From Bacteroidota bacterium (lineage in GTDB: Bacteria > Bacteroidota > Bacteroidia > JABEUT01), in NCBI GenBank assembly GCA_013288205.1, contig JABDCH010000008.1, forward strand, positions 1 through 42,995: a stretch of DNA of 42,995 nt, in the 5' to 3' direction. Position numbers and translations under genes: made by a program. The notes beneath the pieces are model-generated. The model did not search any database, was not told where the DNA came from, and saw only the letters and a program-made list of their open reading frames with translations. The first letter of the stretch is position 1; every line of letters starts with the position of its first letter. This document shows positions 14,058 to 41,597 of this stretch, piece after piece.

Positions 14058-14083
14058 AAACAGATAGTTAATTCTATTTGTTT
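14058..14083 (-). terminator. AT-rich hairpin at the end of the YHYH/MbnP/di-heme operon
   Basis: The plus strand reads AAACAGATAG, a 6-nt loop TTAATT, then CTATTTGTTT: a 10-bp stem with one weak pair. It overlaps the stop codon of the di-heme enzyme gene and lies in the 47-bp gap before the methyltransferase. There is no clear U tract on the minus strand, so it is a weak terminator candidate or an mRNA end-stabilising hairpin. Confidence 0.3.
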
Positions 14084-15134
14084 AATAATGTCCACTTGGA
14101 TCGGCAAAACGCCTGTCATGAAGGAAGGTTTGGTCGCTTAGCGTTTTCAAAAATGCTATAATATTCGTTTTATCGGCTTCTGACAAAGAAATCCCCTTTA
14201 CTAATATAGGATCGGCCCCACTTTCCCTGGTAAATTTTTGGGTGTAATGGTCTAGTACCTGTTTAAGCGTTCTAAATCGCCCATCGTGCATATAGGGATA
14301 TGTCATTTCTATATTCCGTAGTGTAGGTACTTTAAATTTCCCCATATCTTTCATCTGACCATTGATAGCGGCTACACCTGAGTCATGGAGGTTGGTATCT
14401 GGTGCAAGTCCCGTATTACGAAAAGTATTATCCGTAAACAATGGCTCTTTATGACATTGCTCACACTTATCCCTGAAAAGTTGCAATCCTTTCAATTCAG
14501 TAGCAGAGAGAGTGTCTTCTCCCCGCATATATTTATCGTAGCGTGAATTATCTGAAATCATAAGGCCTGTAAATTGGGCCAGCGCTTTCAACATATTTTT
14601 TGAATTAACTATGCTATCGTTAAATGCAGCTTTAAACATCACCGTATATTCCTTATTCCGTTGTAGTTTCTGAATAATATGTCCTATTGTTTCATTCATC
14701 TCAATAGGATTGGATATAGGTGATAAAGGCTGTACTTCCAAGTGGTTTATTCGTCCATCCCACATAAACGAAGTGTTCCAAATCAAATTTTGCAATGGAG
14801 GTACATTTCTTTTCCCAATCAATCCGTTTATACCATGACTTAAGGGATGATCTATATGTGCAAATGCTGCTATACGCTGGTGACAAAAGCCACAACTTAT
14901 CGAACTATCCTTAGACAAAATAGGATCATAAAATAATTTTCGTCCAAGTACAAAACCAGCCGGAGTTGGGTTATTATTCTTAAAATCATATAGCGGTTTA
15001 GGAAACCCATTTGGAATAGTAAACTCCACATCCTTTTGTGTGATTTTAAAATAGAGATTATCGCCTATGAAGCTGCCCATAAACAACAGAACAAAAAAGA
15101 AGAATGCAAAGGAGTATATTAGTTTTCGTTTCAT
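14082..15134 (-). CDS. di-heme cytochrome c peroxidase family protein, MauG/MbnH-like
   Basis: This 350-residue secreted protein has an N-terminal hydrophobic signal/anchor (residues 5-24) and two haem c sites: CGFCH (81-85) and CEQCH (224-228). Trp125 in MWDGR matches the tryptophan between the haems of bacterial peroxidases. Near the C-terminus, YPYMHDGRFRTLKQVLDHY places Tyr297 where classical CcpA has the axial Met. MauG and MbnH use Tyr there to stabilise a bis-Fe(IV) state and oxidise protein side chains. The gene starts 6 nt after an MbnP-family gene, the pairing seen for MbnP-MbnH. The ligand assignment is by motif comparison, not structure. An H2O2-detoxifying peroxidase remains the alternative. 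Confidence 0.85.
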   Translation of the reverse strand: MKRKLIYSFAFFFFVLLFMGSFIGDNLYFKITQKDVEFTIPNGFPKPLYDFKNNNPTPAGFVLGRKLFYDPILSKDSSISCGFCHQRIAAFAHIDHPLSHGINGLIGKRNVPPLQNLIWNTSFMWDGRINHLEVQPLSPISNPIEMNETIGHIIQKLQRNKEYTVMFKAAFNDSIVNSKNMLKALAQFTGLMISDNSRYDKYMRGEDTLSATELKGLQLFRDKCEQCHKEPLFTDNTFRNTGLAPDTNLHDSGVAAINGQMKDMGKFKVPTLRNIEMTYPYMHDGRFRTLKQVLDHYTQKFTRESGADPILVKGISLSEADKTNIIAFLKTLSDQTFLHDRRFADPSGHY

Positions 15135-15140
15135 GATACG

Positions 15141-15881
15141 CTACTTGCCTTCATCCATAACGCTAAACATAGTGGAGTAATTATCTGCAATATTCCTTGC
15201 ATTATGAAAATCCGTAACCGAAGATAATTTAGAAAAATCAACCGGATTGGGTGAGAAAAACAAATGACTGAGGTCTGCTTTAATATCTACTATATGATTT
15301 GTTTGTTCTCCTACTGTAACAGTATGCTTAAGTTCCAGGTTAATTCTTTTAATGCAATTATTGGGTTCTCGATATCCACCAATATGAAATTCGAGGCGTT
15401 TTCCATTTGAATTGGAAACAGGTGATATACCTTCCATTTTAAGAAATATGTATCCCGAGTTCCAGGCCCAGAACATCCCATTAACAGGGTCCAATGCCCC
15501 CGACTGGGCACCGCTGCAATTATCAATACTGTCTACTCCGAGTGTAAAACCAATAGCGGAATATATTCCTGCAGGAATACTGTCTATCGTAATTTGCATA
15601 GAGCCTGGTTCTTCCTGATTGATCAAAAAGTATCTCTTTGATGTATATTCTCGCCCTCCCTTATTTTTAAAATGAAAATTACCTGCGTAGTATTTGAACA
15701 TGGTTACGCGATAGGGCTGCCCCAATTGGTTTTTATAAGAGACCGAATCGAAAATCATTGGACTATCGCCTACGTAATTGTGAAACCGTATAATTAGTTT
15801 TGCAGCCGAGGGAGGAGTAAATGACATAGCAGCTACAAGGACTGCTATGATACTAATACTATAAATTATCTTTCTGAACAT
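15141..15881 (-). CDS. MbnP-family putative copper-binding protein
   Basis: A 246-residue exported protein with an N-terminal signal (residues 3-27, ending SAA). Family features are FHNYVGD (His34), the GFTLGVDS strand, the ALDPVNGMFWAWNSGYIFLK signature with Trp138 and Trp140, and FHIGGY (His166). Cys122 and Cys176 could form a disulfide. In methanotrophs MbnP binds copper after the partner MbnH converts a tryptophan to kynurenine. The neighbouring di-heme enzyme makes the same chemistry plausible here, with the GMFWAW tryptophans as natural candidates (inference). The ATG shares one base with the YHYH stop codon (TAATG), so translation is coupled. Confidence 0.82.
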   Translation of the reverse strand: MFRKIIYSISIIAVLVAAMSFTPPSAAKLIIRFHNYVGDSPMIFDSVSYKNQLGQPYRVTMFKYYAGNFHFKNKGGREYTSKRYFLINQEEPGSMQITIDSIPAGIYSAIGFTLGVDSIDNCSGAQSGALDPVNGMFWAWNSGYIFLKMEGISPVSNSNGKRLEFHIGGYREPNNCIKRINLELKHTVTVGEQTNHIVDIKADLSHLFFSPNPVDFSKLSSVTDFHNARNIADNYSTMFSVMDEGK

Positions 15882-17122
15882 TATTGCACTTTAACAATCT
15901 TCTTTGCAAAAGTAGCATTTGAAGTTTGTAAGCGCAAAAAATAAACCCCTGCAGGATACTCGCTGAAGTTTATAGAGTAACTCATACTTGGCTGCAAGTT
16001 TTGATATGTTTTCAGCACTTTTCCATTTATATCGTATAGTTCGCCGGTAATATTATTGTCGCTTGCAGGATCGATATAAAAATAGGCATAATCGGTAACC
16101 GGGTTGGGTTCAAGAGTAATGTTAATTTGTTTTCTTACCACATTAGCTACTCCTGTATATATGGTAGTAGAGTCAGAGGGTGTATTATGCCCGCTGCCTG
16201 GTCCTGTATTACCTGATTGAACCACACCGTAGTAAGCTAAACCTAGGGTATAGGGATACACGGGAGTCAGCGTTTCATCAATTGTTACAAAATAAGCGTA
16301 GATTCCATTAGGATATTCAGGGGTTATACAGAATCTCCCGTTATTCGTATCCAAATCACCTGAACCGACAATGTATTTATAATCTTCCATAAAATCGCCG
16401 ATTGGATAGGTTGCACTTACGGCAGGTCCCGTTTGTGATGCTACAGCCCCGGTTGGCAAAGTATCTCTATTTACCATTTTGCGTAACTGATACGAAGAGT
16501 GCATACGTTTTATGCCCCCGGTGCCATTGGCATTAGCATAGCCATAAGCGCCATAAATAGGATACCCGTCAAACGCATAGCCGATAATGGGAGAATGGTT
16601 GGTGCTATCGGCATCATTATACAAGCATTTAGGATTAACGTGGTGATGATAACACCCAGATTGGTCTGGGTGACCAAGACAATTATCAAAACTAGGGCCT
16701 TCGAAGTAGTATGCATTACGGTGCCACACCCCATCATTGTTGTAGGTCATGCCATCGCTTGCGTTGAATAAAGCAACCCCATTGCTCCACACGCCTATCG
16801 GGCCTAAACCCATCACAGTAGGGGTACCAGTATTTTTTTGGGGATTACGCGTTATTTTAAACACAAAATTCTGGTTGCTGGGCATGTTGGGGTTACCATT
16901 CCAGGGGCCAATGCTATAGCCTGGAATACAAGTACAGCTAACATAAACATTTGCTGCATCATACTGTATTACCTGAACATTGGTCAGAATGCCTCCGTAC
17001 CCGGTAGCATTGTTTGTGTTAAGTATCCATGATGTAATAACAGGACTCTGTGCAGAGACTTGCATTATTACGGCCAAAAACAGGGATAAACAAAGGCCGG
17101 TTCTTTTAATAATTGTTTTCAT
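15881..17122 (-). CDS. YHYH domain protein with type IX secretion C-terminal sorting domain
   Basis: This 413-residue protein has a Sec signal peptide (1-25, ending VSAQ), a YHYH domain (about 28-300) and a type A T9SS sorting domain (about 337-413). The YHYH core has the His cluster GCYHHHVNP (157-164), the GYAFDGYPIYGAYGY strand (181-195) and FCITPEYPNGIYAYFVT (264-280). CTCIPGYSIGPW near residues 63-74 adds two Cys. The C-terminus shows LEPNPV, DINGKVL and AGVYFLRL, ending KKIVKVQ, as in proteins exported to the cell surface by T9SS. The His cluster suggests metal binding, but this is not established to my knowledge. It is the first gene of the operon with the MbnP and di-heme genes. Confidence 0.87.
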   Translation of the reverse strand: MKTIIKRTGLCLSLFLAVIMQVSAQSPVITSWILNTNNATGYGGILTNVQVIQYDAANVYVSCTCIPGYSIGPWNGNPNMPSNQNFVFKITRNPQKNTGTPTVMGLGPIGVWSNGVALFNASDGMTYNNDGVWHRNAYYFEGPSFDNCLGHPDQSGCYHHHVNPKCLYNDADSTNHSPIIGYAFDGYPIYGAYGYANANGTGGIKRMHSSYQLRKMVNRDTLPTGAVASQTGPAVSATYPIGDFMEDYKYIVGSGDLDTNNGRFCITPEYPNGIYAYFVTIDETLTPVYPYTLGLAYYGVVQSGNTGPGSGHNTPSDSTTIYTGVANVVRKQINITLEPNPVTDYAYFYIDPASDNNITGELYDINGKVLKTYQNLQPSMSYSINFSEYPAGVYFLRLQTSNATFAKKIVKVQ

Positions 17123-17186: not shown

Positions 17187-17194
17187 CAAAAATA
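17187..17194 (-). promoter_or_regulatory. candidate -7 promoter element (TATTTTTG) for the YHYH/MbnP operon
   Basis: An exact TAnnTTTG match on the minus strand within the 90-bp gap before the YHYH gene, leaving a leader of about 58 nt. A TTG at 17210-17212 lies 15 nt upstream of the element, slightly closer than usual for a -33 box. No obvious metal-regulator operator palindrome was found in the gap. Confidence 0.45.
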
Positions 17195-17212: not shown

Positions 17213-18718
17213 TTAAAAACCTTCGATTTCGGGCTGACGATAGTGAAGCCAAAATTTTTGCAAAGCCTTAATGGTATAGGGATAATGATAAAACCCGGTT
17301 CTATACCGCCAGGATGAAATAAGATGCATAAATTTCCGTTGAAAAGATGTAAGTTTTATATCCGAAACGGTAGGATAATAGCCATTCAGAATCGTTTCAA
17401 AGTTCCTGATTTTATTCACCATTTCCGCAGTAAGCCAAGGTGTGAGCGGGTTTTTATGCAAATCAAACTTCTCCCATTCAGGGTTTAGCCAATCTTCCAG
17501 CTTTTCTGGAAAACGGAACCCTGTATCTAATACGTCATTAAATAATTCAGAGCCCTCGGTTGGAACAGGGCTATATATATATATAATAATCTCTGTATTA
17601 GGGTTGGCCTCCTTTACCTTATAAATAAAATCAATATCCTCATCTATTTGCTTCATCACTTTTTCAGGCGTTTCCCCCGGGGTCCCCATTACAAAGGAAT
17701 ACTCGGGAACAATGTCAAATTCTCGCAATCGTTTTGCAAAACGCAAAATCTGTTCGCCCGTTTGGGTTCCTCCCTTATTCATTATTTTCAATTGTTCATC
17801 ATTTCCTGATTCAGCTCCGAAAAAAACCATTTTACATCCCGACTCCCTCATTAATTGAAGGGTGGAATCCTTGTACCTATCCATCGTATCTATCCTGCTG
17901 AAACCCCACCATCCTATATTTTCATCCTTGATGAGTTTTGCAAACTTAATGGTTCTTTTTTCTGAAACGAAGAAATTATTATCATGGAATTCGATGGCAG
18001 TACCTCCATAATTGTCCTTTAAATATTTAATGTCTTTATAAATATTTTCGGCCGATTTGGCTTTCCAGCGCGCATTATAAATAGGGACTACCGCACAAAA
18101 TGAACAGGAAAAAGGACAGCCTACACTGGAATGATACGCAATAGTCTTTGTTCCGAGATAGGTTTTACCTAGATATTTGTTTAAGGGATAGAAAAGATTT
18201 AATTTGTCGTAAGGCAACGGAGGAAGTATATTTTGATCATACAGTTCATCTTTACGAGTTTTTATAATCTGCTCACCTTCTTTAAATATCAGGTTATTGA
18301 TAGAATGTAATGAAGTGTTATTTTCAAATGCCTCTAATAAGGCCGGGAAGGCTTTGTCCCCGGGGCCATAAACTACCACATCTACATACCCGGAGTTAAG
18401 AATTGTCGTCGCCTGATGTGAGGCAAAATACCCACCCCAGATTACCTTTATATCAGGATAGGTCTTTTTTATCTCTTTAGTAAAAGGTATGGCTTGTTTA
18501 GTCTGCGGCCCAGGCATAACTGTACTGGCAAAATAACCTATATCTCCTTTTAATAAGTATGAATTTATTTTAGATAAAGGATCGCTCTCTAAGTTCCCGT
18601 CTACAATAACATATTCGTATTTACCATCAATGCTGGCGGCAATATTCATAATGGAATTAGGTATACGGGGATTATACCTTGCACTGCGTGGGTTAAATAA
18701 AAGTACTTTAGGTTTCAT
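17213..18718 (-). CDS. B12-binding domain-type radical SAM protein
   Basis: A 501-residue protein with an N-terminal Rossmann-like cobalamin-binding-type domain (about 1-140) and a radical SAM domain (about 190-400). The 4Fe-4S motif is CPFSCSFC (Cys201, Cys205, Cys208), and GGYFASHQATTIL is typical of class B radical SAM enzymes. I see no DxHxxG lower-ligand motif in the N-terminal domain, so cobalamin would have to bind without a His ligand. Such proteins methylate or rearrange lipids, hopanoids or peptides; the substrate here is unknown. A (TA)7 run lies inside the ORF at 17572-17585. The gap to the YHYH operon contains that operon's promoter, so the two are probably separate. Confidence 0.85.
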   Translation of the reverse strand: MKPKVLLFNPRSARYNPRIPNSIMNIAASIDGKYEYVIVDGNLESDPLSKINSYLLKGDIGYFASTVMPGPQTKQAIPFTKEIKKTYPDIKVIWGGYFASHQATTILNSGYVDVVVYGPGDKAFPALLEAFENNTSLHSINNLIFKEGEQIIKTRKDELYDQNILPPLPYDKLNLFYPLNKYLGKTYLGTKTIAYHSSVGCPFSCSFCAVVPIYNARWKAKSAENIYKDIKYLKDNYGGTAIEFHDNNFFVSEKRTIKFAKLIKDENIGWWGFSRIDTMDRYKDSTLQLMRESGCKMVFFGAESGNDEQLKIMNKGGTQTGEQILRFAKRLREFDIVPEYSFVMGTPGETPEKVMKQIDEDIDFIYKVKEANPNTEIIIYIYSPVPTEGSELFNDVLDTGFRFPEKLEDWLNPEWEKFDLHKNPLTPWLTAEMVNKIRNFETILNGYYPTVSDIKLTSFQRKFMHLISSWRYRTGFYHYPYTIKALQKFWLHYRQPEIEGF

Positions 18719-30430: not shown

Positions 30431-32461
30431 TTAATTAATTTTAATCGGGGGATTTGAGCTGAAAACAGACTTCTGGGCACTACTGCTACTTGCATTCTTT
30501 ACTTTAAATGCATTTAACCCATCTACGAGGAATTGCTTGTACTCAACAATGTCAGGTGTGTAGCCTCGTTGAGGTATTAATGTATTTCCACTCGTATCAA
30601 CAAGCACATACAAGGGTTGTGTATTGCTTTTATAGAGGTTGGTTTCCATATCGGTCCAACGGTCTCCATCAGTTTCAATTTTAGAACCATCGAATTTAGA
30701 GACCGATTGTTTATCGGCCGGTAATTCATTTTGGTCATCTACATATAAAGAAACCAACACATAATCATTATCAATTATATTATAAACAGATGGGTCTGAC
30801 CACACATTCTCTTCCATTTTACGGCAATTCACACAGGTATTACCCGTAAAGTCGATCATAATTGGTTTTTTCATTTGCTTAGCCACAGCAACTGCTTCAT
30901 CGTAATTATGCAGGCAGTTAATATGGGGAGGGCATCCATGCACGCTTGCCGTTTTGGTCGATGCCTTGGAATTATCTGTTTTATCGGATTCTATAGCACC
31001 GGATGATGCTATGGTCCAACCTTCGGAATAGGATGCCGGTGGAGGGAATCCGCTCAACAGCTTCAGCGGGGCACCAAATAAGCCCGGCATAAGATATAGC
31101 GAAAATGAAAATGCAAAAACAGCAAGAATTAAACGGAAAACGCTGAGATGTTTTATCTCAGAATCGTGGGAGAACCGCAATTTTCCGATAAGATACAAGC
31201 CCGTGATGGCGAACATAACTATCCAAATAGCAACAAATATTTCCCGTCTAAGGATACCCATTGGCCCATTAATATGGAAGTGCAGCCATTTGATATGCAG
31301 ACCTACTAAATCGGCATTGGAAAGGAATTTAAGCGAGAAGGTAATTTCAAGTAATCCCAATACTACTTTAACACTATTAAGCCATCCGCCTGATTTTGGC
31401 ATCTTAGATAATAGATGTGGAACAGCAGCAAATAAAGCAAAGGGCAATGCCATGGCGGTTGAAAAGCCGAACATTCCTACTATCAAACTCCAATAACCAC
31501 CACTTTGAGAAACCCCTGCTAACAGGGAACCTAATATGGGACCAGTGCAGGAAAAAGAAACTATACATAGCGTAAGAGCCATAAAGAATATTCCCAATAA
31601 TCCACCCTTTTCGGAAGCAGTATCGGTTTTATTTACCCACGAACTTGGAAGCGTTATTTCAAATGCGCCAAGGAATGAGAACCCGAAAATGACAAATACA
31701 ATAAAGAAAATAAGATTCACCCACCCATTACTGGCTATAACATACAAACCCGAAGGGCCTGCCAATGCAGTTATTAATCCACCTAAAAGAACATAAATAA
31801 GTATAATGCAAAGGGCGTAGATATAAGGCCCCGCTGATTTCCTTTTATTTTGAGGAATAGTTCTTTTGGTAAAGAAACTAACCGTAAGCGGAATCATAGG
31901 AAACACGCAGGGAGTTAATAACGCTGTAAGCCCACCCAGAAAACCGAGTATAAATATTAAAAGATAGCCGCTGCCGGAAGATTTTGACATGGGTACTGCC
32001 GGCGGTATGGTAATAACGAAATCAAATGCCTTAGGTGGAAGACACATACTTTCATTACATACCTGGCAATATACATTTCCCTTTAGGGTAAATCCTTTGA
32101 GGTTATGTGCAACAATCTTTTGGGTAAAGTCAGCCTGGTTAAAGAAATATTTCACCACCAATTTAAAAGTGGAGTCGTACTTAGTTATGCAGGTGTCAAC
32201 ATCCATTGTTTTTCCTTCCACAGTATAATCAGGAGCAGTTGTATAAGTAAAGGCCATCGGGATGGGTCCGTTGCTATCGCTATGCTGAGCGTAGGTATGC
32301 CAGCCCTTCTGGATATCTACATGCAATGTAATTGCATATTCCGAATCACTAATTTGCTTTTGAGAGAATTTCCAACTAAGGGGGTTATACACCTGTGCGC
32401 TCGCTGTATATACTAAAAACAAAAAAAGGCCAATCCAGCCTTTCCTGAATATATGCACCAT
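30431..32461 (-). CDS. dsbD: thiol:disulfide interchange protein DsbD family
   Basis: A 676-residue protein carrying electrons from cytoplasmic thioredoxin across the inner membrane. Domain order is a signal peptide (1-22), an N-terminal DsbD-alpha domain with CQVCNESMCLPP (Cys135 and Cys140), then eight helices. The membrane redox cysteines lie in LLTPCVFPMIPLTVSFF (Cys185) and SFSCTGPILGS. A C-terminal thioredoxin domain carries CVNC (543-546). A Ser-rich tail of about 20 residues ends the protein. It is 3 nt after the small hypothetical gene and 11 nt before the GT22-type gene. It may supply reductant for cytochrome c haem attachment or disulfide isomerisation in the periplasm. Confidence 0.94.
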   Translation of the reverse strand: MVHIFRKGWIGLFLFLVYTASAQVYNPLSWKFSQKQISDSEYAITLHVDIQKGWHTYAQHSDSNGPIPMAFTYTTAPDYTVEGKTMDVDTCITKYDSTFKLVVKYFFNQADFTQKIVAHNLKGFTLKGNVYCQVCNESMCLPPKAFDFVITIPPAVPMSKSSGSGYLLIFILGFLGGLTALLTPCVFPMIPLTVSFFTKRTIPQNKRKSAGPYIYALCIILIYVLLGGLITALAGPSGLYVIASNGWVNLIFFIVFVIFGFSFLGAFEITLPSSWVNKTDTASEKGGLLGIFFMALTLCIVSFSCTGPILGSLLAGVSQSGGYWSLIVGMFGFSTAMALPFALFAAVPHLLSKMPKSGGWLNSVKVVLGLLEITFSLKFLSNADLVGLHIKWLHFHINGPMGILRREIFVAIWIVMFAITGLYLIGKLRFSHDSEIKHLSVFRLILAVFAFSFSLYLMPGLFGAPLKLLSGFPPPASYSEGWTIASSGAIESDKTDNSKASTKTASVHGCPPHINCLHNYDEAVAVAKQMKKPIMIDFTGNTCVNCRKMEENVWSDPSVYNIIDNDYVLVSLYVDDQNELPADKQSVSKFDGSKIETDGDRWTDMETNLYKSNTQPLYVLVDTSGNTLIPQRGYTPDIVEYKQFLVDGLNAFKVKNASSSSAQKSVFSSNPPIKIN

Positions 32462-36328: not shown

Positions 36329-37582
36329 ATGCGTAGAGCCCCGCAAAATATTATTGTTTTCATCTTTATTTCAGCGTTTTACAACACTGCCATTTTAAAG
36401 GCACAAACTAAAACACTGGACGATTATCTCAATACAGCTTTAAAAAGCTCTCCTGTTTTAAAAGACTATTACGGGCAAATTGAGCAAAGTAAATTAGATA
36501 GTGCTATAATAGTTTCCAATTATAAGCCCCAAGTCAATCTTACAGGTCAGGCTTTGGTAGCCCCTACTTATGGTCAATATGGGTATGATGAAGCAGTTAC
36601 TAATGGAGGCAATTATGAGGCAATTGTTAGCGTTTCCCAGCTAATCTTTCCACGCAAAGAAATAAATACAAACAAGAAATTAAGCAATATTGCTCATCAA
36701 TCTCTTTCGAACCAGGCCAAGCAAACGGAAATACAGTTAAAAAAAGATGTTACAGACAAATATCTAACCATTTGCCTCTTGGAACAGCAGCAAATCTATT
36801 TTTCAGAAAGCGATAGTTTCCTGGTTCATGAATTAGTGCTCCTCAAAAATCTTACCGAAAAAGGGATATACAGAATATCTGACTATTATGAATTGTCTGT
36901 TGAGGAACAGTCCGAGCGTACGGAATTAGTGAAGCTAAAACTGGATATGGTGCAGTCTTTCAGCGATCTGAACGAAGCCTGCGGAATTTCAGATACTACC
37001 CATTACTACTTGGCCGTACCTCAAATTCAAGCCTTCAAACAAGCTGACTACCGGCAATTAACCATGTTTCAAAAATACCAGATTGATAGCAGCCAGATTT
37101 CATTTCAGGGCAAATTGCTCGATGCAGAATATAATCCTCATCTTTCGTGGTATGCCGATGCTGGTATGGAGGCATCACAGCCCAACCTGATTTATCGGAG
37201 TTTTGGTAATAGCATTGGCCTCAATCTTTCTATGCCTATATATGATGGACACAAAAAAGACCTGAAATATAAATCGCTCAAAATTTCAGATGACACACGC
37301 GCCAACTACCAAAACTTCTTTATCCAGAATTACAATAGCCACACAAGCATGCTTGCGAAACAACTAGAAGATAACCTGAACCTACTTATACAGTTACACA
37401 AGGAAGAAGAGCAGATAAATAACTGGCGAAAAGTTAACGAAGTGCAATTAGCAGCAGGCAATATATCTATCACGGATTTTCTCATTAGCACTCGCAAAGA
37501 ACTGGACGTGAAAAACGAAATTACACAAGCCCTCATTAATCAACAACAATTGCAGAATGAATTTAACTATTGGAATCAATAA
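36329..37582 (+). CDS. TolC family outer membrane efflux protein
   Basis: A 417-residue outer membrane channel component with a Sec signal peptide (about 1-25, ending ILKAQ). The family is recognisable from the N-terminal TLDDYLNTALKSSPVLKDYYGQIEQSK, the repeated long amphipathic helices, and the periodic halves: a strand segment GNYEAIVSVSQLIF in the first and SIGLNLSMPIYDGHKKDLKYK in the second. It is shorter than E. coli TolC. Its last 26 nt overlap the adaptor gene, so translation is coupled. It should form the exit duct for the RND pump encoded downstream. Confidence 0.88.
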   Translation: MRRAPQNIIVFIFISAFYNTAILKAQTKTLDDYLNTALKSSPVLKDYYGQIEQSKLDSAIIVSNYKPQVNLTGQALVAPTYGQYGYDEAVTNGGNYEAIVSVSQLIFPRKEINTNKKLSNIAHQSLSNQAKQTEIQLKKDVTDKYLTICLLEQQQIYFSESDSFLVHELVLLKNLTEKGIYRISDYYELSVEEQSERTELVKLKLDMVQSFSDLNEACGISDTTHYYLAVPQIQAFKQADYRQLTMFQKYQIDSSQISFQGKLLDAEYNPHLSWYADAGMEASQPNLIYRSFGNSIGLNLSMPIYDGHKKDLKYKSLKISDDTRANYQNFFIQNYNSHTSMLAKQLEDNLNLLIQLHKEEEQINNWRKVNEVQLAAGNISITDFLISTRKELDVKNEITQALINQQQLQNEFNYWNQ

Positions 37583-38528
37583 ATATCCGGGGAAAGTCCC
37601 TTTCCACGGGCTGCTTTTTACCATACTTGCGTCACTGGCTATGTGCATGGGATGTACTCATAGCGGAGGAAACGATGGAGATGATAATGCAGATACTGCA
37701 GTAAAAGGTGGAAAAATAGACGTAAATGTAACTTCTCCGAGGATTGGAAAAATATCTCAATACCAAACCCTGAATGCAACAACCGCTTACCTGTTAAACG
37801 ACGATGTGCGAGCCCCCATTAGCGGATATTTGCAAAAGGTGAACGTTACCCCAGGTCAGCTAGTAGAAAAAAACGATATACTTTTTTCGATGGAAAGTAA
37901 AGAAGCGATTGCTTTGAACCTGGTAAAAGATACGGCATTGCACATTAGCAGCATCATATATGTAAAAGCTACTGAGACAGGAATTGTAAAAACCATCAAC
38001 AGGCAGTTAGGCGATTACGTGCAAGATGGAGATGTGCTATGTACCGTTGCAAACAGCTCAAGCCTTGTATTTACACTTGAGGTTCCTTTCGAAATGCATG
38101 CCTATATTAAAGAAGGTTCTGACTGCTTAATAACTTTACCCGACGGACAGTCTGTAAAAGCACGTGTCAGTTCCAGGATACCGGAAATGGACAGGGCTGT
38201 ACAAATGGAACGTTATATTTTAAGGACTACTACTCCGCTGAATCTACCTGAAGGATTGATAGCCAACGTAAAAATCCCCACCGACATTCAGAACAATGCA
38301 ATAATACTGCCCAAATCAGCCATTTTGTGCGATGAAACTCAGGTTCAATTTTGGGTTATGAAGCTGGTACGCGATTCTCTTGCTATCAAAATCCCCGTTG
38401 AAAAAGGCGCTGAAACTACAGATAGCGTCCAGATAAAAACTCCGACTTTTTCGGAACAGGATAAAATACTTATAAGCGGTAATTATGGTTTACCTGATAC
38501 AGCCCTCGTAAAAGTGATAAACAGGTAA
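37557..38528 (+). CDS. efflux RND transporter periplasmic adaptor (short, hairpin-less, probable lipoprotein)
   Basis: A 323-residue membrane fusion protein. Its hydrophobic N-terminus ends in LAMCMGC, a probable lipobox with Cys33 (Cys30 also possible). The lipoyl domain is split as usual: DDVRAPISGYLQKVNVTPGQLVEKNDILFSM (84-112) and IIYVKATETGIVKTINRQLGDYVQDGDVLCTV (133-164), quoted only to locate the halves. Normally these halves flank a long coiled-coil hairpin that meets TolC. Here only about 18 residues lie between them. Beta-barrel and membrane-proximal domains follow. It overlaps the TolC gene by 26 nt and precedes the pump by 9 nt. Confidence 0.87.
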   Translation: MNLTIGINKYPGKVPFHGLLFTILASLAMCMGCTHSGGNDGDDNADTAVKGGKIDVNVTSPRIGKISQYQTLNATTAYLLNDDVRAPISGYLQKVNVTPGQLVEKNDILFSMESKEAIALNLVKDTALHISSIIYVKATETGIVKTINRQLGDYVQDGDVLCTVANSSSLVFTLEVPFEMHAYIKEGSDCLITLPDGQSVKARVSSRIPEMDRAVQMERYILRTTTPLNLPEGLIANVKIPTDIQNNAIILPKSAILCDETQVQFWVMKLVRDSLAIKIPVEKGAETTDSVQIKTPTFSEQDKILISGNYGLPDTALVKVINR

Positions 38529-38537
38529 CCTGAAGAA

Positions 38538-41500
38538 ATGAAGCAACACTTTTTCATAAAATTCAAAAATCCTATACTGGCCATTGTAATTTTTGCCCTG
38601 GTAGGGGGTTATTATGTTTCCCGGAATACGAAAACTGCCCTGCTTCCCAATGTAATTTTCCCGAAAGTGAAAATCATTGCAGAAAACGGGGAACAGCCGA
38701 TAGATAAGATGATGATAACGGTAACCCGTCCGCTGGAAGAGGCTATAAAACAAGTTCCTTACCTGCAAAGGGTTTACAGTACAACCAGCCGCGGAGAATG
38801 TGAGATAAATGTCTTCCTGAATTGGGATGCCGATATGGATATCAGCGAGCAACAGATAGAATCGCGGATTAACCAGATTAAAAATATGCTGCCTCCCGAT
38901 GTGGAGATAAAAGTAGAAAAGATGAGCATGTATTCCGTTACAACTGTGATGGGGTATGTATTAAGCAGCCCAGACAGAACGCCTATAGATCTTAACTGGA
39001 CTGCACAATACACGGTTAAGCCCTTCTTGTCGCAAGTAGAAGGAGCATCAAAAGTAGAGATTTCAGGTGGGAAGAATAAGGAATACTGGGTGAACCTGAA
39101 TGCAGCTAAAATGAGTGGCCTGAGGATTACGCCTGCAACGGTTCGCGACGCCATAGCTAAAAATGATTTCATAGAATCTAACGGATATTCTTCCGACTAC
39201 AACCGTATGTATCTTTCTATTACCGATGCAAGCATCTACAACATCCCGGAATTAGAAAATATCATTGTAAATTCAGATAGTTCGGGCTATGTAAGATTAA
39301 AAGATATTGCCACCGTGCAGGTCCATGAAGAACTTGCCTTTACACGCATTCGGGCTGATGGGAAACAGGCATTACTGGTAGATGTGTTACAACAACCCAA
39401 TGCAAACCTGGTCGACTTCTCCCAGCGGATGGATGAAAAAATAAAGGAGTTGCAAAAGATTCTTCCTTCGGATGTACATATCTCTAACTATTATGACCAG
39501 GCAGTTTTTGTAAAAGATGCTGTATCAAGCGTACAAGAGGCTTTAATGATAGGCTTGGCGCTTGCCATCATTATGGTTATTATTTTCCTCCGTTCGCTGA
39601 GGGCATCTGTTGCAGTGTTGCTCACTATCCCGGTTACACTTTCGCTTACCTTGATGGTTATTTATGCAGTAGGGTATACTTTTAATATTATGACACTTGG
39701 GGCGCTTGCTGCAGCCATCGGTCTTATTATTGACGATGCCATTGTGGTAGTGGAGCAAATTCACCGCATACGGGAAGAGCATCCTGAACTCACCGCTTTT
39801 GAGGCTTCCCAGCAAGCTATTCATAAGTTGTTACCTTATATGGTAGGTTCATCGCTGAGTACGCTTGTAATATTTATACCCTTCGCATTTCTGCTGAGTG
39901 GTATATCGGGAGCCTACTTCAAAGTACTTACCATCACCATGCTGATAACGCTTGTCTGCTCTTTCTTTGCGACGTGGCTCATCCTTCCCGTTATTTATTC
40001 TTATTTCTCCAGAAGTATTAAAACTACTAAAACATCGCATCACGTAAAGCGGCAGAAATGGGTTATCTTCGTTGTTACCCGCCCCTGGACAAGTTTTATT
40101 ATCATAGCCCTGATGCTGGGAAGTTTTCTATATATAATTCCCCACATAGAAACGGGATTTCTACCCGATATGGATGAGGGTACTATAGTATTGGACTATT
40201 TTACACCTCCGGGCACCTCCCTTGAAAAGACAGACAGTATTCTACACAAGGTTGAACGAGCTGTAATGGGCGTGCCTGAAGTAAGCAAAGTGGTAAGACG
40301 AACCGGAGCTGAAATGGGTTTTTTTGTAACAGAACCTAATTCCGGCGATTTCCTCATTCAATTAAAAAATACCAGGAAAGTAACTACTGACGCCGTAATT
40401 GATGAGATACGTGATACCATACAATCACTCAGCCAACCAATTCATATTGAAATTGGACAGAGAATAGAGGATATTTTAGGTGATTTAATTGGAGAAACGC
40501 AGCCTATACAAATCAAAATATACGGAGACGATGCGGACAGACTACATGCCATTGCATCTGGTGTAGCAGATAAAATAAGTGGGATCCCCGGCATCACGGA
40601 TGTATTTAACGGAGTTACCATTGCAGGTCCCTATATTAATATACGTCCTGATCTAACCAAACTGGCTCAGTTTAATATTGCACCGGAAGATTTCCAATTT
40701 CAATTAGCGACCCAATTGAATGGCTCTACTGTAGGAACTGTTTTTGAGAAGCAACAAATGACGAACATACGCCTTGTTCAGTTGAATTATTCACTTTCGG
40801 CTGAACAGGCAGGCTATTTTCAAAGTATTGACGATTTGAAACAAAGCTCCGTTTTTTTGCCTGACGGAAGACTTCAGCCCATTACCCATCTCGCAACTAT
40901 CACACCCACAAAAGGTATATCAGAAATCAATCGTGAAAATCTTCAACCTGTGGTGATGGTAACAGCCCGTTTAAGCAATAGAGATTTGGGCAGTACCATG
41001 AGCGACGTAAAGAAGGCGATGCAGAAAATTGTACTACCGCAAGGCTATCATTATTCTTTCGGAGGAACCTACGAAGAGCAACAACAATCTTTCCATGAGT
41101 TATTGATAATACTTATCACTTCCTGCCTGTTAGTATTCAGTATTATGCTGTTCCTATTTAAAGATTTCAGGGCTGCATTTGTGGTTCTTGGTATTGCTAT
41201 ACTGGGTGTTACAGGTAGTTGCATAGCATTATTCCTTACGGGAACACCACTCAATGTAGGCAGTTATACGGGGCTTATTATGATTGTAGGTATTATTGGC
41301 GAGAATGCCATATTTACGTTCCAGCAATTTGCAGAAGATATACCTAAGCAAGGCGTAAAAGAGGCATTGGTATTTGCTATATCCACCCGTTTACGACCTA
41401 AAATAATGACAGCACTTTGTGCCATTATTGCATTGTCACCATTGGCTTTCGGAATAGGCACAGGAGCCACCTTGCATCGCCCGCTCGCTATTGCTGTAAT

Positions 41501-41597
41501 AGGTGGTTTTGTAACAGCACTACCACTATTGCTGATAGTTTACCCTGCTCTACTTGCTCTTGTTTATCGCAAAAAGGATAGTAAGGCCAAAGAATAA
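38538..41597 (+). CDS. efflux RND transporter permease subunit (HAE1/AcrB-type)
   Basis: A 1019-residue inner membrane proton-driven pump. It has TM1 near the N-terminus (residues 10-27), a large periplasmic loop, TM2-6, a second periplasmic loop, and TM8-12. The proton-relay acids are Asp399 and Asp400 in AAIGLIIDDAIVVVEQ, matching the AcrB Asp pair. GFLPDMDEGTIVLDYFTPPGTSLEKTD and GLIMIVGIIGENAIFTFQQFAED are further family marks. Substrate is unknown; the sequence resembles both drug and metal (CusA-like) branches. With the TolC and short adaptor genes it forms one operon and ends 12 nt from the convergent LpxR-family gene. Confidence 0.93.
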   Translation: MKQHFFIKFKNPILAIVIFALVGGYYVSRNTKTALLPNVIFPKVKIIAENGEQPIDKMMITVTRPLEEAIKQVPYLQRVYSTTSRGECEINVFLNWDADMDISEQQIESRINQIKNMLPPDVEIKVEKMSMYSVTTVMGYVLSSPDRTPIDLNWTAQYTVKPFLSQVEGASKVEISGGKNKEYWVNLNAAKMSGLRITPATVRDAIAKNDFIESNGYSSDYNRMYLSITDASIYNIPELENIIVNSDSSGYVRLKDIATVQVHEELAFTRIRADGKQALLVDVLQQPNANLVDFSQRMDEKIKELQKILPSDVHISNYYDQAVFVKDAVSSVQEALMIGLALAIIMVIIFLRSLRASVAVLLTIPVTLSLTLMVIYAVGYTFNIMTLGALAAAIGLIIDDAIVVVEQIHRIREEHPELTAFEASQQAIHKLLPYMVGSSLSTLVIFIPFAFLLSGISGAYFKVLTITMLITLVCSFFATWLILPVIYSYFSRSIKTTKTSHHVKRQKWVIFVVTRPWTSFIIIALMLGSFLYIIPHIETGFLPDMDEGTIVLDYFTPPGTSLEKTDSILHKVERAVMGVPEVSKVVRRTGAEMGFFVTEPNSGDFLIQLKNTRKVTTDAVIDEIRDTIQSLSQPIHIEIGQRIEDILGDLIGETQPIQIKIYGDDADRLHAIASGVADKISGIPGITDVFNGVTIAGPYINIRPDLTKLAQFNIAPEDFQFQLATQLNGSTVGTVFEKQQMTNIRLVQLNYSLSAEQAGYFQSIDDLKQSSVFLPDGRLQPITHLATITPTKGISEINRENLQPVVMVTARLSNRDLGSTMSDVKKAMQKIVLPQGYHYSFGGTYEEQQQSFHELLIILITSCLLVFSIMLFLFKDFRAAFVVLGIAILGVTGSCIALFLTGTPLNVGSYTGLIMIVGIIGENAIFTFQQFAEDIPKQGVKEALVFAISTRLRPKIMTALCAIIALSPLAFGIGTGATLHRPLAIAVIGGFVTALPLLLIVYPALLALVYRKKDSKAKE

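Follow-up and report, generated by a model that had tools for sequence, protein, structure and literature searches.

To our knowledge, copper sites that depend on kynurenine have been shown experimentally solely in methanotrophs, and an MbnP/MbnH pair was reportedly characterised by Manesis et al. in 2021. Here we analyzed a window of 42,995 nt from a Bacteroidota bacterium (assembly GCA_013288205.1, contig JABDCH010000008.1), in which three genes on the minus strand encode, in this order, a YHYH-domain protein, an MbnP-family protein, and a two-haem enzyme of the MbnH/MauG type. The MbnP/MbnH pair was described in 2013 as conserved "far beyond" methanobactin producers (PMC3621798), isolated MbnPH pairs in copper-regulated operons were reported in 2022 (PMC9426467), and MopE and CorA of methanotrophs are further kynurenine-copper proteins (PMC3912023). 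The original prediction proposed the three genes as a candidate kynurenine-copper system outside methanobactin clusters. Sequence and fold comparisons backed the MbnP and the MbnH-like enzyme of this candidate, whereas pairs outside such clusters have been known since 2013; as far as could be checked, the new part is YHYH as the third partner. On balance, the evidence tips somewhat toward an MbnP/MbnH-type operon that handles copper in the envelope and has a third, surface-exported partner, YHYH.

The gene calls matched the predicted arrangement exactly: the YHYH and MbnP genes share base 15881 (a 1-nt overlap), and a 6-nt gap separates the MbnP gene from the di-haem gene. N-terminal hydrophobic export signals were visible in all three products as predicted, and Pfam confirmed a YHYH protein with a sorting tail of the type IX secretion system (T9SS), an MbnP, and a MauG/MbnH-like two-haem enzyme (Table 1). 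The source genome (G000), a draft of 153 contigs that is 62% complete, holds a single copy of each family.

The MbnP protein, which is exported without a lipobox, scored 170.3 bits against PF20243 in the Pfam scan (gathering cut-off, 27). Its AlphaFold model (predicted local distance difference test [pLDDT], 93) gave six significant Foldseek matches in the PDB, all of them chains of 7l6g (E 2e-9 to 8e-8, template modeling [TM] score 0.56–0.60), the methanotroph MbnP structure; the next match had an E of 3e-2. A single-sequence search against the PDB returned no match, and the relation was seen with profile and fold searches. A profile of 42 Bacteroidota MbnPs matched six MbnPs of other phyla (proteobacterial, Deinococcus, and cyanobacterial) with an hhalign E of 2.7e-25. 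By these comparisons, the window protein is a genuine but divergent branch of MbnP. In the joint alignment of the 42 proteins with the six, which come from Methylocystis, Paracoccus, Ideonella, Deinococcus, and Trichormus (n = 48), the predicted WxW was present, with Trp138 kept in 48/48 proteins, Trp140 in 47/48, and Met136 in 46/48. Trp138 is, by analogy, the expected kynurenine position, and Met136 and His166, both near-invariant across phyla, are candidate copper ligands.

On profile evidence, the di-haem enzyme resembles MbnH more than it does peroxidases or MauG. Its best NCBIfam model was TIGR04039 (MbnH; 219.9 bits, against 174.3 for the other model), and its family profile ranked MbnH 6e1c first in the PDB (263 bits, E 3.4e-77), above 1iqc (228 bits) and, by 83 bits, MauG (180 bits). 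The N-terminus forms a hydrophobic signal or anchor. The axial haem ligand is Met in cytochrome c peroxidases and Tyr in MauG; Tyr297 of the window enzyme aligned with Tyr of 6e1c and with Met of 1iqc, 3o5c, and 3hq8. Because the MbnP fold, the invariant Trp, and an MbnH-like enzyme come together here, the operon holds a candidate Trp-to-kynurenine copper site, and the enzyme probably oxidises the MbnP tryptophan for copper holding. As a side observation, the name "methanobactin export MATE transporter MbnM" in RefSeq/PLSDB sits on post-MbnP genes with two CxxCH motifs (Table 1), an apparent misannotation of the di-haem MbnH.

The coupling of YHYH to MbnP-MbnH is non-random and extends across many Bacteroidota families. 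We surveyed 357 genomes, comprising an even sample of 297 Bacteroidota genomes and 60 relatives. In the even sample, MbnP occurred in 78 genomes, full-length YHYH in 22, and both in 13 (Fisher p 0.0007); the two genes lay ≤5 kb apart in 8 of these 13, where 0.09 was expected by chance, and 18 further genomes with linked genes were found among the relatives. The co-occurrence that the original prediction had marked for checking is therefore real. Among 80 loci for which similarity to YHYH was the sole selection criterion, some of whose records are the sampled genomes under public names, a MauG/MbnH-like gene was within five genes of 30/77 YHYH genes and MbnP within five genes of 29/77. Adjacent pairs of these families were co-directional in all fetched loci (144/144), an arrangement that greatly exceeds chance, and the median gaps between them ranged from -4 to 61 nt. 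Two gene orders exist, YHYH-MbnP-MbnH in the window's genus and its relatives, and MbnP-MbnH-YHYH. They sit in separate clades of the MbnP tree, divided by pairs that lack YHYH, and placing all YHYH-linked MbnPs in one clade was rejected (approximately unbiased [AU] test, p 1e-109). Therefore, the YHYH link was made, or was lost and rearranged, more than once, although the tree was built quickly and has long branches, which leaves the count of such events uncertain. No paper tying YHYH to copper or SCO1 was found in the literature searched, which did not cover subscription papers; the predicted coupling to YHYH, which is non-random, is the new element as far as could be checked.

Other genes recur at these loci. 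An arylsulfotransferase-like protein is repeatedly encoded between or beside YHYH and MbnP (L101:6435-8114, L151:10105-11751, L202, L224, L240, L244) and is T9SS-tailed in L101 and L151. In two genomes of the same genus, though not in the window, a ZIP metal transporter is encoded immediately downstream of the operon (L101:1874-2593, L104:12589-13308).

YHYH has a second copper context that lacks MbnP, the SCO1 operon. Short YHYH lipoproteins are encoded in an operon of YHYH, a MORN-repeat protein, and SCO1/SenC (L178-L187, L189, L192, L194; e.g., L187:6374-10076). SCO1/SenC was within five genes of 16/22 short-class YHYH genes versus 0/585 background genes; four of the SCO loci were fetched owing to a nearby CnrX-like match, and 11 of the 15 YHYH loci fetched otherwise show SCO. 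Multicopper oxidases stood beside YHYH in L195, L196, L113, L220, and L238, mostly with an AhpC/TSA redoxin and in some cases with a sulfatase; the oxidase of L195 carries a T9SS tail, and L220 also has MbnP and MbnH. With SCO1/SenC or a multicopper oxidase next to such other YHYH genes, the YHYH family follows copper genes in its own right.

YHYH (PF14240) is a family without an assigned function that is known from bacteria, phages (tails), and diatoms. The window protein scored 178.5 bits (cut-off, 25), reads YHHH at the YH.H motif, and gave an AlphaFold model with a pLDDT of 87.8. The fold search of the PDB returned no match except for the T9SS tail and immunoglobulin-like domains. The idea that YHYH is a relative of MopE or CorA was rejected, as no such match appeared in the PDB profile search or the fold search.

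Table 1. Features of the operon (window positions) and MbnM-named genes at other loci (L numbers).
Feature	Position	Strand	Remarks
YHYH-domain protein gene	15881-17122	minus	413 aa; PF14240 E 1.9e-52, PF18962 E 5.9e-12
Signal peptide, YHYH domain (residues 88-286), T9SS type A sorting tail (residues 339-410)	~15893-16108 (tail)	minus	
His151, His159, His161 of YHYH, putative metal site	16640-16672	minus	each kept in 118/120 aligned proteins; a 3-His+Asp metal site has been predicted for phage YHYH domains (PMC7824862)
MbnP-family gene	15141-15881	minus	246 aa; PF20243 E 5.5e-50
MbnP MxWxW motif, Met136-Phe-Trp138-Ala-Trp140	15462-15476	minus	aligns with GMAWNW of 7l6g
His166 of MbnP, candidate copper ligand	15384-15386	minus	46/48 aligned MbnPs
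MbnH/MauG-like di-haem enzyme gene	14082-15134	minus	350 aa; PF03150 E 1.6e-52
First CxxCH haem site, Cys81-Cys84-His85	14880-14894	minus	invariant in 39 homologues
Second CxxCH haem site, Cys224-Cys227-His228	14451-14465	minus	invariant in 39 homologues
Tyr297 of the enzyme	14244-14246	minus	invariant in 39 homologues; position of axial Met in bacterial cytochrome c peroxidases
MbnM-named di-haem genes	L277:4591-5751, L278:3681-4865, L280:4492-5661, L281:4595-5746, L282:3521-4792		

At many loci of relatives, genes for an extracytoplasmic function (ECF) sigma factor (~190 aa), a single-pass membrane protein (80–95 aa), and a membrane-anchored PF13801/LTXXQ protein (~155 aa, CnrX/Spy-like) lie upstream of both gene orders, in the layout of CnrH-CnrY-CnrX and with similar sizes. 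The profile of the third protein aligned at full length with NccX and also with CnrX and Spy, all weakly (E 0.01–0.2 to NccX/CnrX). By analogy, the small protein would be anti-sigma-like and the third protein a CnrX/Spy-like periplasmic sensor. In the 357 genomes, all 13 matches to this profile above 150 bits adjoin MbnP or YHYH; 11 of the 13 had built the profile, yet the two that had not (in G305 and on contig 40 of G192) agree. Some of the short-YHYH SCO operons also sit behind a cassette of an ECF sigma factor, a small transmembrane protein, and a CnrX-like protein. The same-genus genome G305 keeps the cassette and YHYH, and MbnP and MbnH are absent there.

In the mechanism that we propose, the Tyr-ligated MbnH-like enzyme would oxidatively convert Trp138 of MbnP, exported alongside it, into kynurenine within the periplasm, a step suggested by homology with the characterised MbnP/MbnH pair, and the modified MbnP would then bind one Cu(I). 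YHYH would reach the cell surface by type IX secretion, and its cluster of His151, His159, and His161 may bind or hand over copper there, as gene context and the cluster itself suggest. In relatives, the CnrYXH-like cassette would switch the operon upon envelope metal. We infer the chemistry, copper as the metal, what YHYH and the cassette do, and which way the copper moves. SCO1 suggests delivery to oxidases and CnrX-like control suggests detoxification; the cassette of the relatives would fit a reaction to surplus metal just as well as acquisition or storage. A further proposal, which we put forward only tentatively, is that YHYH is an unrecognised class of extracellular copper proteins, with a fold new to the PDB, that was joined more than once in Bacteroidota to MbnP/MbnH under a CnrX-like cassette.

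Several findings weigh against a copper-handling operon with YHYH as a partner. The window MbnP scored 35.2 bits against TIGR04052, below the equivalog cut-off of 140, and the enzyme was below the TIGR04039 cut-off of 362.85. A His conserved in the six other-phylum MbnPs (in NH, after N121) is missing from Bacteroidota MbnPs, and Asp117 is invariant in and specific to the latter, with Pro at that position in the six. Because of these two differences, the copper site of Bacteroidota MbnP may be altered. Copper genes near the operon, another check that had been asked for, were absent among the 25 other window open reading frames (ORFs) scanned with Pfam. The cassette was not found beside the window operon or at three sister loci, and no copy of its sensor was found in the source genome, which is 62% complete. 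For many YHYH genes of planctomycetes and some of Bacteroidota, no copper gene is recognisable nearby. An earlier prediction for phage YHYH domains, that they are hydrolases with a Zn2+ site made up of three His and one Asp, also points elsewhere (PMC7824862).

That prediction underlies an unlikely but serious alternative, in which the MbnP-MbnH pair handles copper and YHYH is a surface hydrolase using zinc or another metal that is simply co-regulated, for example in envelope remodeling under metal stress. Sulfatases, arylsulfotransferases, and FGE-domain proteins also neighbor YHYH, which moreover persists without MbnP/MbnH and whose domain lacks a fold match in the PDB, all in keeping with such a hydrolase. 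However, SCO1 beside the short class, the multicopper oxidases, and MbnP-MbnH in two orders point to copper and not to metals generally.

More doubtful still is a scheme in which MbnP and YHYH are both oxidised as substrates of the di-haem enzyme, giving a second kynurenine-type site in YHYH, as had been raised at the outset for this locus. A deltaproteobacterial (L268:5838-9209) and a planctomycete (L275:6140-9323) metagenome-assembled genome encode a YtkA-like protein, a MauG-like di-haem enzyme directly upstream of YHYH, and no MbnP, a possible direct enzyme-YHYH pairing, and W32 of YHYH is kept in 55/55 MauG-linked proteins. However, W32 is also kept in 42/49 and W133 in 48/49 proteins without a MauG neighbor, so that no conserved Trp is specific to MauG linkage, and YHYH stands alone in many genomes and without the pair in G305, leaving modification of YHYH by the enzyme unsupported. 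Likewise improbable is an oxidative-stress operon with the di-haem protein as an ordinary H2O2 peroxidase and MbnP as its structural or electron-donor partner: PF03150 includes ordinary peroxidases and single-sequence phmmer ranked the peroxidase 1iqc marginally first, about equal with 6e1c, but the family profile favors 6e1c over peroxidases by 35 bits, the invariant Tyr297 stands where the axial Met would be, and MbnP shows no variation at the substrate Trp.

The transcription signals named in the original prediction fared less well than the genes. The -7 element TATTTTTG is present upstream of the operon at 17187-17194 on the minus strand, but its pattern is no better than chance, with 34 occurrences in the window versus ~54 expected, that is, rarer than chance. 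The terminal hairpin fell within the shuffle range (z = -0.71; 48/200 shuffles were at least as stable). Both were rejected as proof of a transcription unit, neither being above chance. A B12-binding radical SAM gene (17213-18718, same strand) lies directly upstream, 90 nt from YHYH; it was rejected as an operon member because it is not kept upstream in same-genus loci. The window also encodes a tripartite efflux set at 36329-41597 (OEP, an HlyD/CusB-type membrane-fusion protein, and a 1019-aa resistance-nodulation-division [RND] pump) and a DsbD-type thiol:disulfide interchange protein at 30431-32461. No mbnA, mbnB, or mbnC was found near the operon among the window ORFs scanned with Pfam, a scan that a lone tiny mbnA could escape.

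With this analysis, the same pair, with its substrate Trp fully conserved, is placed across a large phylum and tied to a regulator and a surface family, and the YHYH family gains a first testable functional lead, copper.

Compared with known systems, the cassette of the relatives is like CnrYXH/NccYXH of Cupriavidus in sizes and architecture, with an ECF sigma factor, a ~95-aa single-pass protein, and a periplasmic PF13801 protein, whereas its sequence likeness to CnrX is weak, Spy is equally close, and the cassette is absent beside the window copy. MopE/SACCP and CorA/CorB likewise combine a surface copper protein, Trp converted to kynurenine, and a co-transcribed di-haem protein (PMC3912023), but there the ligands are two His and kynurenine, and no MopE or CorA entry appeared in our sequence or fold match lists. 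MbnP/MbnH of Methylosinus trichosporium OB3b (7l6g, 6e1c) is alike in fold, MxWxW motif, enzyme type, and adjacent gene pair; it differs in that no methanobactin genes were found among the window ORFs scanned and that YHYH is a third partner here. The Bacteroidota MbnP is also shorter (246 aa versus 274–350 aa in the six other-phylum MbnPs), lacks one His, and has Asp117 for Pro. The isolated MbnPH pairs, which occur with DUF2946/CruR, TonB receptors, ScoC, PCuAC, and CopC, likewise lie outside methanobactin clusters and with copper genes (PMC9426467, and also loci of this study). Whereas those operons include TonB receptors and CruR, the Bacteroidota operons include YHYH, joined in relatives by a CnrYXH-like cassette.

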